IMG/VR virus record: IMGVR_UViG_3300042353_000012
Span: 1-35,044 of that record
DNA: 35,044 nucleotides
Reading direction: 5' to 3' (one strand)
DNA from: a virus
The notes below the pieces were generated by a model. It saw nothing but the letters and a program-made list of their open reading frames with translations, was not told the origin of the DNA and did not search any database. Positions 197 to 3,441 of the stretch are shown here, piece by piece. Position numbers and translations under genes: made by a program. Numbering within the stretch: the stretch's first letter is position 1; the number at the start of each line of letters is the position of its first letter.

Positions 197-345
197 TGCC
201 CACCGTCCTCTTGGACGAGATTATCACCATTTTCGCACAGCAAGTTGCCTACTGACGCGCCACTGTCAAGCGTGCCTGAAAACAGCGTGACAATGCCAGC
301 TAGGCCAATCGCCACCGAATTGCGAAGGGCGACACCGAAGCTCAT
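181..345 (-). CDS. Small phage tail-region protein, 54 aa, unknown
   Basis: A 54-residue protein starts MSFGVALRNS and ends in an acidic tail GQILLE. The start ATG overlaps the stop of the upstream gene at 342-650 (ATGA), and its stop lies 4 bases before the ATG of the tail adaptor, so it is translationally coupled within the tail operon. The N-terminal part (about residues 8-23) is hydrophobic. The C-terminal part contains GDNLVQEDGG, resembling acidic Gly/Asp-rich tails of phage tail-region proteins. No enzyme motif is seen. The last five codons are repeated at the far right end of the window (35029-35044), as expected for a circular join. Its function is unknown; a minor virion or tail assembly role is inferred from position only. 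Confidence 0.7.
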   Translation of the reverse strand: MSFGVALRNSVAIGLAGIVTLFSGTLDSGASVGNLLCENGDNLVQEDGGQILLE

Positions 346-650
346 TGTTTGTTGATAGGCTTGCAGTACGCAGTGCCGTCTGTGCTACCAATTCGAAGCA
401 CACTGACCCGCCAAGGAGAACCGTTTGAGCTGAGTGTCAGAACAAACGGGATAGGCGTATAAGCGGGGATGGGTGTGCTGGCACTGGTAGCAACAGCACC
501 AACGCCCACTTCAACATAGCAAGGCACTTCGCACCAAACCAAAACGCCTTGAGGGCCAGCGTTCCATGCGGTTGTGTTGCCTGCGCTCGCACCGGCAGTT
601 GCGGTGTAAGCGGGGAAATCCGCTTTGCTCATCGGGTTAAGTAGTTCCAT
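342..650 (-). CDS. Small beta-rich virion-region protein, 102 aa
   Basis: Two ATG codons lie in tandem at 653 and 650. The AAGGAA ribosome-binding site sits only 2 bases before the first but 5 before the second, so 650 is preferred. The protein is rich in Ala, Thr, Val and Pro with short alternating hydrophobic stretches, suggesting a beta-sandwich rather than an enzyme, and it has three cysteines (CEV, CYV, YCK). It lies between the Dps-like gene (stop 660) and a 54-aa gene that it overlaps by 4 bases, upstream of tail-fibre genes. A structural role such as head or tail decoration is plausible, but I do not recognise a named family. Confidence 0.65.
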   Translation of the reverse strand: MELLNPMSKADFPAYTATAGASAGNTTAWNAGPQGVLVWCEVPCYVEVGVGAVATSASTPIPAYTPIPFVLTLSSNGSPWRVSVLRIGSTDGTAYCKPINKQ

Positions 651-659
651 CATATTTCC

Positions 660-1022
660 TTATGCCAAGAATTTGAGCTTGTAAAGTGTTCGCAGATATA
701 TCTCAACGATATTATCTATCAATTGTTGCAACGATGAATCAGATTTATCACACACATCGTATCTTGCGGCCTCAATTTCAGCAAGTGAATCTTGCAAGAA
801 CTCAATAACGTTGGCCGTTTTCTTGGCCGAATTCAAGGTAATTGGGCCAATTAAACCGTACCGGCCTTGGTAGGCTTCGGCAAAGTCATCAGCCGCACCA
901 ATGATGCGGTCATAAAAAATGTTTAAGGCCACATGTTTGCTGTAGCTACGGGTGTTCAAATGAACACTGTGCGTTACATCACGGGCTAGGAACAAAATTC
1001 CTATGAAGTCTGCGGCTTTCAT
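660..1022 (-). CDS. DUF5856-like four-helix protein with Dps-type metal-site spacing
   Basis: This 120-residue all-helical protein resembles the phage family DUF5856. Predicted helices are about residues 3-22, 27-52, 62-85 and 93-119, the layout of a ferritin-like four-helix bundle. H18, H30, D45 and E49 have spacings 12/15/4. These equal the ferroxidase residues of E. coli Dps (H51, H63, D78, E82) and Listeria Dps (H31, H43, D58, E62). The fifth Dps ligand, Asp at H+4, is Asn34 here. The surrounding pattern H-x4-N-x-R and the last helix (SSLQQLIDNIV, TLYKL) also recall Dps. At 120 aa it is shorter than Dps (about 150-170). It overlaps the portal stop (ATGA). Iron or peroxide handling is inferred; a purely structural role is the alternative. 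Confidence 0.8.
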   Translation of the reverse strand: MKAADFIGILFLARDVTHSVHLNTRSYSKHVALNIFYDRIIGAADDFAEAYQGRYGLIGPITLNSAKKTANVIEFLQDSLAEIEAARYDVCDKSDSSLQQLIDNIVEIYLRTLYKLKFLA

Positions 1023-3211
1023 TGTGGCATTCCTTGTGGTGGCATCATCTGTTGTTCAGGTGGCATCATCTCCATGGGCATGGATTCCTCGCGCATCTCA
1101 GGCATCTGGTTCATTGTGTTTTGCGACTCCATAGCCGCAGCAACAACACCCATGGCAATATCTTGGATCTGCTCCTCGGTCATGCCTGCTTGCACAGCGG
1201 CAATCCGCTTGGTTTCGGCATCATAAAGTTTAATTTGAGCCTCAAAGTCCTTGCGCTCCATGTCCTGCATCTCGATAGACTTGCCAACATTCTGGATCAT
1301 CTGGTACATCTGCTCCATCTCAGCGCCCATGGCCTGAATTTGTTGCTGGGCGGCCTGCAATGCTGGATCATCCTCGCCATCAGACAAGAACTTGGGATCA
1401 ATGGTCTTGGCAAAGCGTTTGGACATCTCCTGTGCGCCAGGCCAGTCCATGTTCTTGACGAACAAGTCGCCGGCCACTTGCCACAGTTGGGGATTACCTT
1501 GCAGCAGTTGAGCCATGGCTTCCAATGCCTCTTGGCGTTTGGTTGCGTAGCCTGGGCCAGTTGTAGCCACCACGTCGTACTTGCCAACGCCGGGATTGTA
1601 GATTTTTTCAATCACAATACCCTGCTCGTTCACAATCTTGTTGACGGGTTGAGGCTGGTCAGGGTTGATCTTGACCATCTTTGTCTCGCCGTCTTCGCCA
1701 ATGATGCGAGCAATCCGCTGTGTGTCGTAAATCTTGGGAATTAAGTCCACCAATTGACGGGCCACATGACGCACGGCACGGGTCAGGTTGTCACCATAAT
1801 GGTAAGTACCTACATCACCCTCACGCTGGCGGGCCAAAATAGCTTTACCAGAACGCTCGTTGGAGCCCATGCCCAATGATGCGTTGTATTGGCCGGTTGT
1901 AGACTTAATGTCCTCGGAAGCGCCAGCTTTGGCTTGCAACAAACCAGTCGAAGCCATTGGCGGCTGCGCACGTTGAGGCAAAGGCAACGCCGCGCCTTGG
2001 CCATCGGTTACATCAGGGTTTACCTCTAGGTACGGCCAATTATTTGTGTTGGCTGTCTTCCACTTGTCCTCATAGCCCTCAAACTGGCCACCGTAGCCAA
2101 TGAACGGAGCCTTGGGCGCCAGAGCCAGCATCTCAGCTTCCTGAGATACCCAGTAGTTGTACATGCGCTGGGCATCCTTGGCGTTTCTGACGAGGCCGGA
2201 GACGTATAACCTACCGTCTACCTCAAACTCGTTGCCAACAACACGGATCACAGGGATCCATTTGCCAGCCCACTCTTTTTGTTCAAGTATTTCGTAACCG
2301 TTAATCTTGCAATACATTACCCGTGGGCGCTCAGACTCACGCGACTTAATGGCCTTGCCGAACATGTCTTTTAACATGCGATCTTCAGGCGTGCCTTCAA
2401 AGGCCGACTGGTTGCCTGGGTACAAGTTCAGCTTGGTTGTGTCGTAGTCAATGTAGTAGTAACCGGCAATGCGAACTGTGTCTTCATTGAGCCAGTTGCT
2501 GATCGACTGATCGCCTACACCTAACGATTGCAATGTAGAAATAGGCGCGGCATCAGGATACTGGCGCTCGTATTCTGCTTTTGTCAGGTCTTCGGTGATA
2601 AAACAATACGTTGCATCTGCACCCGTTGGGTCTTGGATCAGCGGATCCATGTAGACCGAGAAGGAGTTACGCACACGGCCAATCTTGATGTCTTGATCGA
2701 ATGTGTTTTCATCACAATATTCGGTCATTAGGGTGATGTAACCCTCACCATAAGCAACTTGGTTCTCGCACGCTGTGTCATAGGCTACATCAGCGTCACT
2801 CATGTACTCAATGTGGCGAATCATGCCGTTGAAAATGTCTGCCACTTCCACATCAGCGTCGTCATCGACTGGGATGACCCGTGCGCCTGGGCGGTTCTGA
2901 CGCATGTCATTCGTTACTTGACGAACGTGTTGCGGCAGTTTGTTAATCGTCAGTGTCGGGCGCGCGTTGATTGTTTGACCTTGCACCGCACCACGGGTAG
3001 CCAGTACGTCAGCAGGCCACTGCCAATGATTGTCAGGGGATCCGGCATAAAAACGCAGATCGTCAATTTCATCTTCGCGGCTTTCAGCCAAAGCGGAGAC
3101 AGCCATGTCCAACCGCGAACGGGCGGTTGTCAATATATCTGAAGCACTCTTTTTAGGCTTACCGCCAGCAGCTACGTTAGCCGCTGCAACAATACCAGTA
3201 GGATCATTCAT
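1019..3211 (-). CDS. Portal protein, P22 gp1-like
   Basis: This 730-residue protein is close in length to P22 gp1 (725 aa) and shows the family's N-terminal pattern: a helical start with DLRFYAGSP and W-rich HWQWP (about 50-65), then NKLPQHVRQVTNDMRQNRP (about 89-107), which is typical of P22-type portals. It would form the dodecameric ring at one capsid vertex through which TerL packs DNA and to which tail proteins attach. The C-terminus is a long helix followed by a Met/Gln/Pro-rich tail, matching the barrel and disordered end of P22 portals. It overlaps the GroES-like gene upstream (ATGA at 3208-3211) and the Dps-like gene downstream (1019-1022), so translation is tightly coupled. Confidence 0.95.
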   Translation of the reverse strand: MNDPTGIVAAANVAAGGKPKKSASDILTTARSRLDMAVSALAESREDEIDDLRFYAGSPDNHWQWPADVLATRGAVQGQTINARPTLTINKLPQHVRQVTNDMRQNRPGARVIPVDDDADVEVADIFNGMIRHIEYMSDADVAYDTACENQVAYGEGYITLMTEYCDENTFDQDIKIGRVRNSFSVYMDPLIQDPTGADATYCFITEDLTKAEYERQYPDAAPISTLQSLGVGDQSISNWLNEDTVRIAGYYYIDYDTTKLNLYPGNQSAFEGTPEDRMLKDMFGKAIKSRESERPRVMYCKINGYEILEQKEWAGKWIPVIRVVGNEFEVDGRLYVSGLVRNAKDAQRMYNYWVSQEAEMLALAPKAPFIGYGGQFEGYEDKWKTANTNNWPYLEVNPDVTDGQGAALPLPQRAQPPMASTGLLQAKAGASEDIKSTTGQYNASLGMGSNERSGKAILARQREGDVGTYHYGDNLTRAVRHVARQLVDLIPKIYDTQRIARIIGEDGETKMVKINPDQPQPVNKIVNEQGIVIEKIYNPGVGKYDVVATTGPGYATKRQEALEAMAQLLQGNPQLWQVAGDLFVKNMDWPGAQEMSKRFAKTIDPKFLSDGEDDPALQAAQQQIQAMGAEMEQMYQMIQNVGKSIEMQDMERKDFEAQIKLYDAETKRIAAVQAGMTEEQIQDIAMGVVAAAMESQNTMNQMPEMREESMPMEMMPPEQQMMPPQGMPQ

Positions 3212-3441
3212 TCCAAAACCCCTAAAATATGAGGCTCACGCATAATGACATAATCTTTGCCACCCTGCTTAAATTCTTGCCCTACATCGAAGTATACATG
3301 GTCACCAACTTTGATGTCTAGGCATTTTGGGCCAATTGAAATTGCAATGCCAGTGCCTAACTTCTCAGTTTGAGGCAACACAAACAAGGGGTGCTTGTCC
3401 ACATCGCGCTCAATGATGATGCAGTCTTGCAATGCTTTCAT
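3208..3441 (-). CDS. GroES-like co-chaperonin, 77 aa
   Basis: The protein follows the Cpn10/GroES pattern: an N-terminal strand (LQDCIIIERD), a Gly-containing strand (GTGIAISIGP), DIKVGDHVYF (about 43-52), then GKDYVIMRE and a C-terminal ILGVLE. It is shorter than bacterial GroES (about 95-97 aa), and the mobile loop that contacts GroEL is replaced by a shorter Pro/Phe/Leu stretch (HPLFVLPQTEK, 17-27). Phage co-chaperonins such as T4 gp31 replace host GroES for capsid folding. Its position directly upstream of portal and coupled to it fits a role in folding head proteins with host GroEL. No GroEL gene is present. It overlaps both neighbours by 4 bases. Confidence 0.8.
   Translation of the reverse strand: MKALQDCIIIERDVDKHPLFVLPQTEKLGTGIAISIGPKCLDIKVGDHVYFDVGQEFKQGGKDYVIMREPHILGVLE

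Follow-up and report, generated by a model that had tools for sequence, protein, structure and literature searches.

Dps is a cage-forming protein of bacteria that sequesters iron and protects DNA against peroxide. Its 12-mer cage has ferroxidase sites that are each shared between two subunits, the Escherichia coli protein additionally using Asp67 as a ligand, and some Dps bind DNA via a basic tail. In the 24-mer ferritins and bacterioferritins the di-iron site lies within a single subunit, with ExxH motifs on helices B and D. In Pseudomonas aeruginosa Dps the di-iron site consists of just H37 and H49 with D64 and E68, the equivalent of E. coli D67 being non-coordinating (PMC10002758). The low-affinity iron site in the ferroxidase centre of E. 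coli Dps includes Lys48 (PMC9140674). Dps encoded by phages are already known (PMC8008677, PMC6669764).

The window analysed here, a 35,044-nucleotide stretch of viral DNA (IMG/VR record IMGVR_UViG_3300042353_000012), encodes a protein of 120 residues whose ORF opens with an ATG start codon on the minus strand. It lies in the following run of genes:

342..653, minus strand: 103-aa ORF, 6 nt downstream of the mini-ferritin gene (ORF call)
660..1022, minus strand: Dps-like mini-ferritin gene (DUF5856 / PHROG 858), 120 aa, pI about 5.9 (5.85) (ORF, Pfam, PHROG, AF2 model)
1019..3211, minus strand: portal protein gene, directly upstream of the mini-ferritin gene (phrog_156, E 2.7e-130)
3208..3441, minus strand: GroES-like co-chaperonin gene in the same run, overlapping the start of the portal gene (PF00166, E 1.1e-6; phrog_3188)

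The portal and mini-ferritin genes overlap by 4 nt, which confirms the portal neighbour named in the first-pass annotation, while the 103-aa ORF has no Pfam or PHROG match. Elsewhere the window encodes a terminase, a major head protein, a connector protein, a primase-helicase and a helicase, and has a tail-spike/fibre-like gene. The closest named relatives, as judged by the mini-ferritin gene, are freshwater phages, for example DSL-LC05 and ctNMl277.

The protein matches the Pfam family DUF5856 (PF19174) with an e-value of 5.1e-20 (72.8 bits against a gathering cut-off of 34.6) and PHROG 858 with an e-value of 7.5e-24. Searches with tblastn (E 0.01) found DUF5856 in 870 of 50,697 phage records. 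The carriers are mainly T4-like and Ackermannviridae phages, jumbo phages among them too, and T4 RI.-1, also called MobD.6, is itself a member (E 5e-33). Bacterial genomes yielded 15 loci among 84,980 species, mostly on short MAG contigs, making a bacterial origin unlikely in the sampled genomes; DUF5856 looks like a phage family. None of three members tested matched NCBIfam, and we found no paper naming DUF5856 in open-access text. The product name given to T4 RI.-1 and its relatives in PHROG 858 and RefSeq, ‘starvation-inducible transcriptional regulator’, is misleading to judge by the modelled fold, which is ferritin-like and not that of a regulator. The DUF5856 model also produced a sub-cut-off match in a Bacillus subtilis control genome, which MrgA/Dps would fit.

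An AF2 model of the window protein, built on an alignment of 102 diverse DUF5856 proteins (pLDDT 95.1, pTM 0.88), forms a four-helix bundle with helices at residues 3-23, 27-55, 72-90 and 96-118. Foldseek comparison with the PDB placed Dps in nearly all of the top rows, apo P. aeruginosa Dps first, with a best e-value of 0.03 and a probability of 1.00; the e-values, 0.03 and above, are weak, whereas the probabilities lie near 1. By VIA the model matches Mycobacterium smegmatis Dps2 with a Z-score of 14.2 and an rmsd of 2.2 Å over 118 residues, and E. coli Dps with a Z-score of about 13, values to be read in the knowledge that four-helix bundles reach high Z readily. The T4 RI.-1 model (pLDDT 92.7) likewise has M. 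smegmatis Dps2 as its best VIA match (Z 13.3, rmsd 2.3, 115 residues). The four-helix layout resembling Dps that had been predicted from the sequence is thus recovered. The fold alone would not settle kinship with Dps, but fold, sequence profile and ligands together do.

With phmmer, the window protein alone had no match among PDB sequences, and only a family profile reached Dps. A profile of 13 divergent members (set A1), collected by tblastn instead of peptide patterns, had Dps chains as its top three matches (E 5e-6 to 1.6e-5). Dps was matched more weakly by profile A5 (E 1e-3), and hhalign with five bacterial Dps gave an e-value of 2e-6 over 108 columns. The window protein has no match to PF00210 (Ferritin), DUF5856 being the sole Pfam model reported at E up to 10; PF00210 is weakly matched by six of the 102 members, at best with an e-value of 0.0032. 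We regard the homology of DUF5856 to Dps as close to certain. A natural tandem fusion of the mini-ferritin was looked for, and none was found.

The metal site had previously been assigned to H18, H30, D45 and E49, with spacings of 12/15/4 said to equal those of Dps exactly, and N34 in place of the remaining ligand. The residue numbering is correct throughout and the spacings are arithmetically right. The positions concerned are:

969..971, minus strand: His18 codon, at the position of E. coli Dps Lys48; first ligand in the first-pass annotation (99/102 His; register)
960..962, minus strand: His21 codon, by alignment the homologue of E. coli Dps His51, the first ferroxidase ligand (102/102; alignments)
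933..935, minus strand: His30 codon, homologue of Dps His63 (102/102; alignments)
921..923, minus strand: Asn34 codon, at the position of E. coli Dps Asp67 (unconserved in the family)
888..890, minus strand: Asp45 codon, homologue of Dps Asp78 (102/102; joint alignment)
876..878, minus strand: Glu49 codon, homologue of Dps Glu82 (102/102; joint alignment)

Conservation was counted in the same 102-member alignment. Its only invariant columns are H21, H30, A32, D45, E49 and G53, all six present in the window protein, although part of the set was gathered with peptide patterns covering H18, H30, D45 or E49, so that invariance at those positions is not fully independent. The two largest divergent scans used patterns without H21, whereas the pattern of one of these scans did include H18, which nevertheless varies, with 99 His (97%), 2 Gln and 1 Lys. 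Among the 13 members of set A1 there are again only six invariant columns, five of which are H18, H21, H30, D45 and E49. Three of the four residues originally picked, H30, D45 and E49, are therefore strictly conserved, while the place of H18 is taken by H21; the chance of at least three of the four falling among six invariant columns of 120 is 2.8e-4. Positions 18, 21 and 30 hold the only His residues of the window protein.

The register points the same way. HMMER comparison with Dps chains of the PDB pairs H21 with the first Dps His and puts a three-residue deletion between the two His, and hhalign with a profile of five bacterial Dps likewise sets H21 on the first His with the same gap. A joint MAFFT alignment with bacterial and phage Dps does so too and has H21, H30, D45, E49 and D95 as its only invariant columns. 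The VIA structural alignment starts at model residue 1 and E. coli Dps residue 31, which, for an ungapped helix A, would pair H21 with H51 and H18 with K48. H21 and H30 are separated by 9 residues in 80 members, 12 in 12, 13 in nine and 18 in one, and members fetched with a jumbo-phage sequence (e.g. L271, L277) show the Dps spacing of 12 from H21. As three sequence methods and its presence in 102/102 members favour H21, we reject H18 as the first ferroxidase ligand: on these alignments the counterpart of E. coli Dps H51 and Listeria H31 is H21, and the spacing in the window protein becomes 9/15/4. With three residues missing from the A-B loop in the family, the ‘exact’ 12/15/4 match from H18 is a coincidence of register, which pointed to the right family nonetheless; H30, D45 and E49 stand as Dps ferroxidase ligands. 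H18 is still relevant since it sits at the place of Lys48, part of the low-affinity iron site.

The alignment agrees that N34 occupies the position of E. coli D67, in a column that is not conserved and is mostly Gly (G 57, N 18, Q 11, D 6, other 10 among the 102 members). Absence of this fifth ligand is no bar to a di-iron site because that of P. aeruginosa Dps uses four. An intra-subunit site of the 24-mer ferritin or bacterioferritin type was rejected, as neither helix B nor helix D has a conserved ExxH. That the window protein retains an intact Dps-type metal site is very probable, and fold, profile homology to Dps and the strict conservation of four ligands lend strong support to the mini-ferritin idea. 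Outside the metal site, D103 and Y114 of helix D are each 97% conserved, and in the alignment Y114 lies close to the Trp that is conserved in Dps (E. coli W160).

The protein shares with Dps, MrgA and HP-NAP (PF00210) a four-helix bundle over the full length, and with Dps the His-His pair on helices A and B and the Asp-x3-Glu on helix B. Its ligands align to E. coli Dps H51, H63, D78 and E82 and to P. aeruginosa Dps H37, H49, D64 and E68. Even so, DUF5856 is a Pfam family separate from that of Dps, and the differences are considerable. The chain has 120 residues against roughly 144-167 in typical Dps, and neither an N- nor a C-terminal tail (helix A runs from residue 3, helix D to 118). The A-B loop is three residues shorter, and the model lacks a B-C helix, there being none between residues 55 and 72, where Dps has one at the dimer interface. 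Compared with E. coli Dps it has His at the Lys48 position and N34 at the unconserved Asp67 position. Given this unconserved position, the shorter loop and the missing interface helix, assembly may differ from the 12-mer.

T4 RI.-1 resembles the window protein in Pfam family, invariant ligands and predicted fold at about 26% identity, but it has 128 residues with an N-terminal extension of 11-12, and its gene lies in the rI lysis-inhibition operon rather than beside a portal gene. The Ackermannviridae proteins LIMEstone1 ORF78 and Sajous1 gp217 belong to DUF5856 (E 9e-29 and 1e-28), keep all the ligands and are about 34% identical to the window protein; the gene in these phages adjoins a primase and other structural genes instead of a portal. 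Canonical phage Dps, such as those of Lactobacillus phage Semele, Campylobacter phage WX1 and Streptomyces phages, have the Dps fold and the same ligand set. Unlike the window protein they score above the PF00210 cut-off, have the 12-residue His-His spacing and keep the Dps Trp, and their DUF5856 scores are marginal at most.

A portal gene lies directly upstream in 115 of the 121 family members that share at least 60% identity with the window protein, and the overlap with it is 4 nt in 104 of the 115. By contrast, none of 162 less similar members with room upstream has a relative of the window's portal there, a count from which diverged portals could have escaped detection. Portal linkage is thus a trait of the window's phage group and not of DUF5856, and a portal association across the whole family, which the first-pass annotation might have led one to expect, was rejected. 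Neighbours in other members include RusA-type resolvases, endolysins, rI and GroES. GroES-like ORFs occur in 31 of the 121 close-relative loci, and GroES adjoins the mini-ferritin gene in three divergent members. One 4.9-kb viral contig (L064) carries two divergently oriented mini-ferritin copies, at 1310-1672 on the minus and 2321-2683 on the plus strand, which may reflect either a true duplication or a chimeric assembly.

Carriage in the virion, suggested as one role for the protein, finds support in published mass spectrometry for three relatives and not for the window's phage itself. LIMEstone1 ORF78 (13.15 kDa) was identified in the virion proteome with three unique peptides and 28% coverage, in a list of 39 proteins with no host proteins reported (PMC3296691), and the genome record (L320) places ORF078 behind a putative late promoter and lists it as a confirmed structural protein. 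Sajous1 gp217 gave 10 spectra in CsCl-purified particles and a Phyre2 match to ferritin at a confidence of 96.7 (PMC10892097). Virion mass spectrometry of phages ValerieMcCarty03 and ValerieMcCarty04 gave 26 and 27 spectra for gp108 and gp100, respectively, in a preparation of 153 proteins (PMC13119998). DUF5856 membership was confirmed for LIMEstone1 ORF78, Sajous1 gp217 and ValerieMcCarty03 gp108. Virion proteomics of lysates carries background and these preparations include some non-virion proteins, but the DUF5856 protein is likely to be present in the relatives' virions.

The reading we favour, and hold with fair confidence, is that the window protein is a minimal, tail-less Dps-type mini-ferritin, probably made late and probably carried in virions. 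A di-iron (or Fe/Mn) site would form between paired subunits, one contributing H21 and H30 and the other D45 and E49; H18, at the Lys48 place, may serve as a further ligand. A ferroxidase function is predicted as the probable activity: the site would oxidise Fe2+, with H2O2 as the most likely oxidant, and Fenton damage would be held down. Since the protein has neither a DNA-binding tail nor a B-C helix, it would protect by chemistry and not as a coat on the DNA. Production from the same gene run as the portal suggests that the mini-ferritin is probably late. Part of it would probably end in the particle, by analogy with the three relatives found in purified virions, although for the window's own phage such carriage falls somewhat short of probable. 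A stronger version, in which a dedicated and widespread virion mini-ferritin sits in fixed copies in or on the head or portal vertex, guards packaged DNA from iron and peroxide and enters with the DNA against early oxidative damage, we consider unlikely.

The best-surviving alternative is an active Dps-like mini-ferritin that works in the infected cell only, keeping free Fe2+ and peroxide down while the phage replicates and assembles, with the virion detections as carry-over. It would agree with the majority of members not lying beside virion genes, their neighbours including resolvases, endolysins and rI, with the proposal that phage-encoded canonical Dps aid host oxidant tolerance (PMC8008677, PMC6669764) and with the sheer 153 proteins of the ValerieMcCarty preparation. 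It sits less easily with the protein's recurrence in three independent virion preparations, one of them the short LIMEstone1 list without reported host proteins, and with the structural label and putative late promoter of ORF078. We treat it as a serious but doubtful competitor to a mini-ferritin that also travels in the particle.

The His, Asp and Glu residues might instead hold Zn or Mn in a purely structural bundle, an oligomer at the portal or neck with no redox activity. The Fe1-type site of P. aeruginosa Dps accepts Mn and Na too (PMC10002758), the gene is co-translated with the portal in the window's phage group and a Dps-like fold is predicted inside two annotated phage prohead proteases. 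Since the ligand set is that of a redox centre and the majority of members are not adjacent to portal genes, such a role is improbable.

A lysis-timing accessory protein like T4 RI.-1, with the ferritin fold serving as regulator and not enzyme, is more improbable again. The T4 gene does lie in the rI operon, and when it is overexpressed the collapse of lysis inhibition comes slightly later (Golec et al. 2010, reviewed in PMC6832632), but that effect is small, jumbo phage RaK2 has an RI.-1 relative without having T holin or RI (PMC3622015), and regulation would not require four metal ligands to stay invariant.

For Sajous1 gp217 a ‘ferrojan horse’ was proposed from virion mass spectrometry, a neighbouring tail gene and the ferritin fold: a mini-ferritin on the tail that offers iron to host uptake receptors and so aids entry (PMC10892097). 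For the window protein this is very improbable, its gene's neighbour being the portal and not a tail protein, and Sajous1 infection was undiminished in TonB- or FeoB-deficient Salmonella (PMC10892097). A transcription regulator, finally, has only the PHROG/RefSeq product name in its favour and, against a ferritin-like fold with neither DNA-binding domain nor basic tail, can practically be dismissed.

The first-pass annotation knew of no function for DUF5856, but the resemblance to ferritin is not new: it is implicit in the ‘starvation-inducible’ name of PHROGs and RefSeq, and a 2024 paper in Viruses called one member a ferritin. In open-access text we found no earlier description of the invariant ligand set or of the corrected register, nor any that connects the small-phage gene with T4 RI.-1 and with the virion protein of Ackermannviridae. 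What counted as a ‘family of unknown function’, present in no fewer than 870 sequenced phage records, T4 included, thereby gains a testable biochemical identity: it is proposed to be a Dps-type ferroxidase reduced to 120 residues, whose four invariant ligands can be mutated. The misleading database name is corrected, and three virion mass-spectrometry sightings are now joined to each other, to T4 RI.-1 and to a conserved metal site. If the mini-ferritin is carried in particles, phages would bring their own antioxidant enzyme along with the genome.

Similar folds are predicted elsewhere among viral proteins in BFVD. Two proteins of uncultured phages annotated as prohead proteases, A0A6J7XDU5 (333 aa) and A0A6J7WIS1 (432 aa), contain a Dps-like fold, with TM-scores by query length of 0.78 and 0.74, respectively, a hint that head assembly may involve a ferritin-like domain. 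In giant viruses a similar fold is predicted for uncharacterised proteins of 115-129 aa, namely A0A481ZC29 of Pithovirus LCPAC404 and A0A7D3V608 of Fadolivirus.
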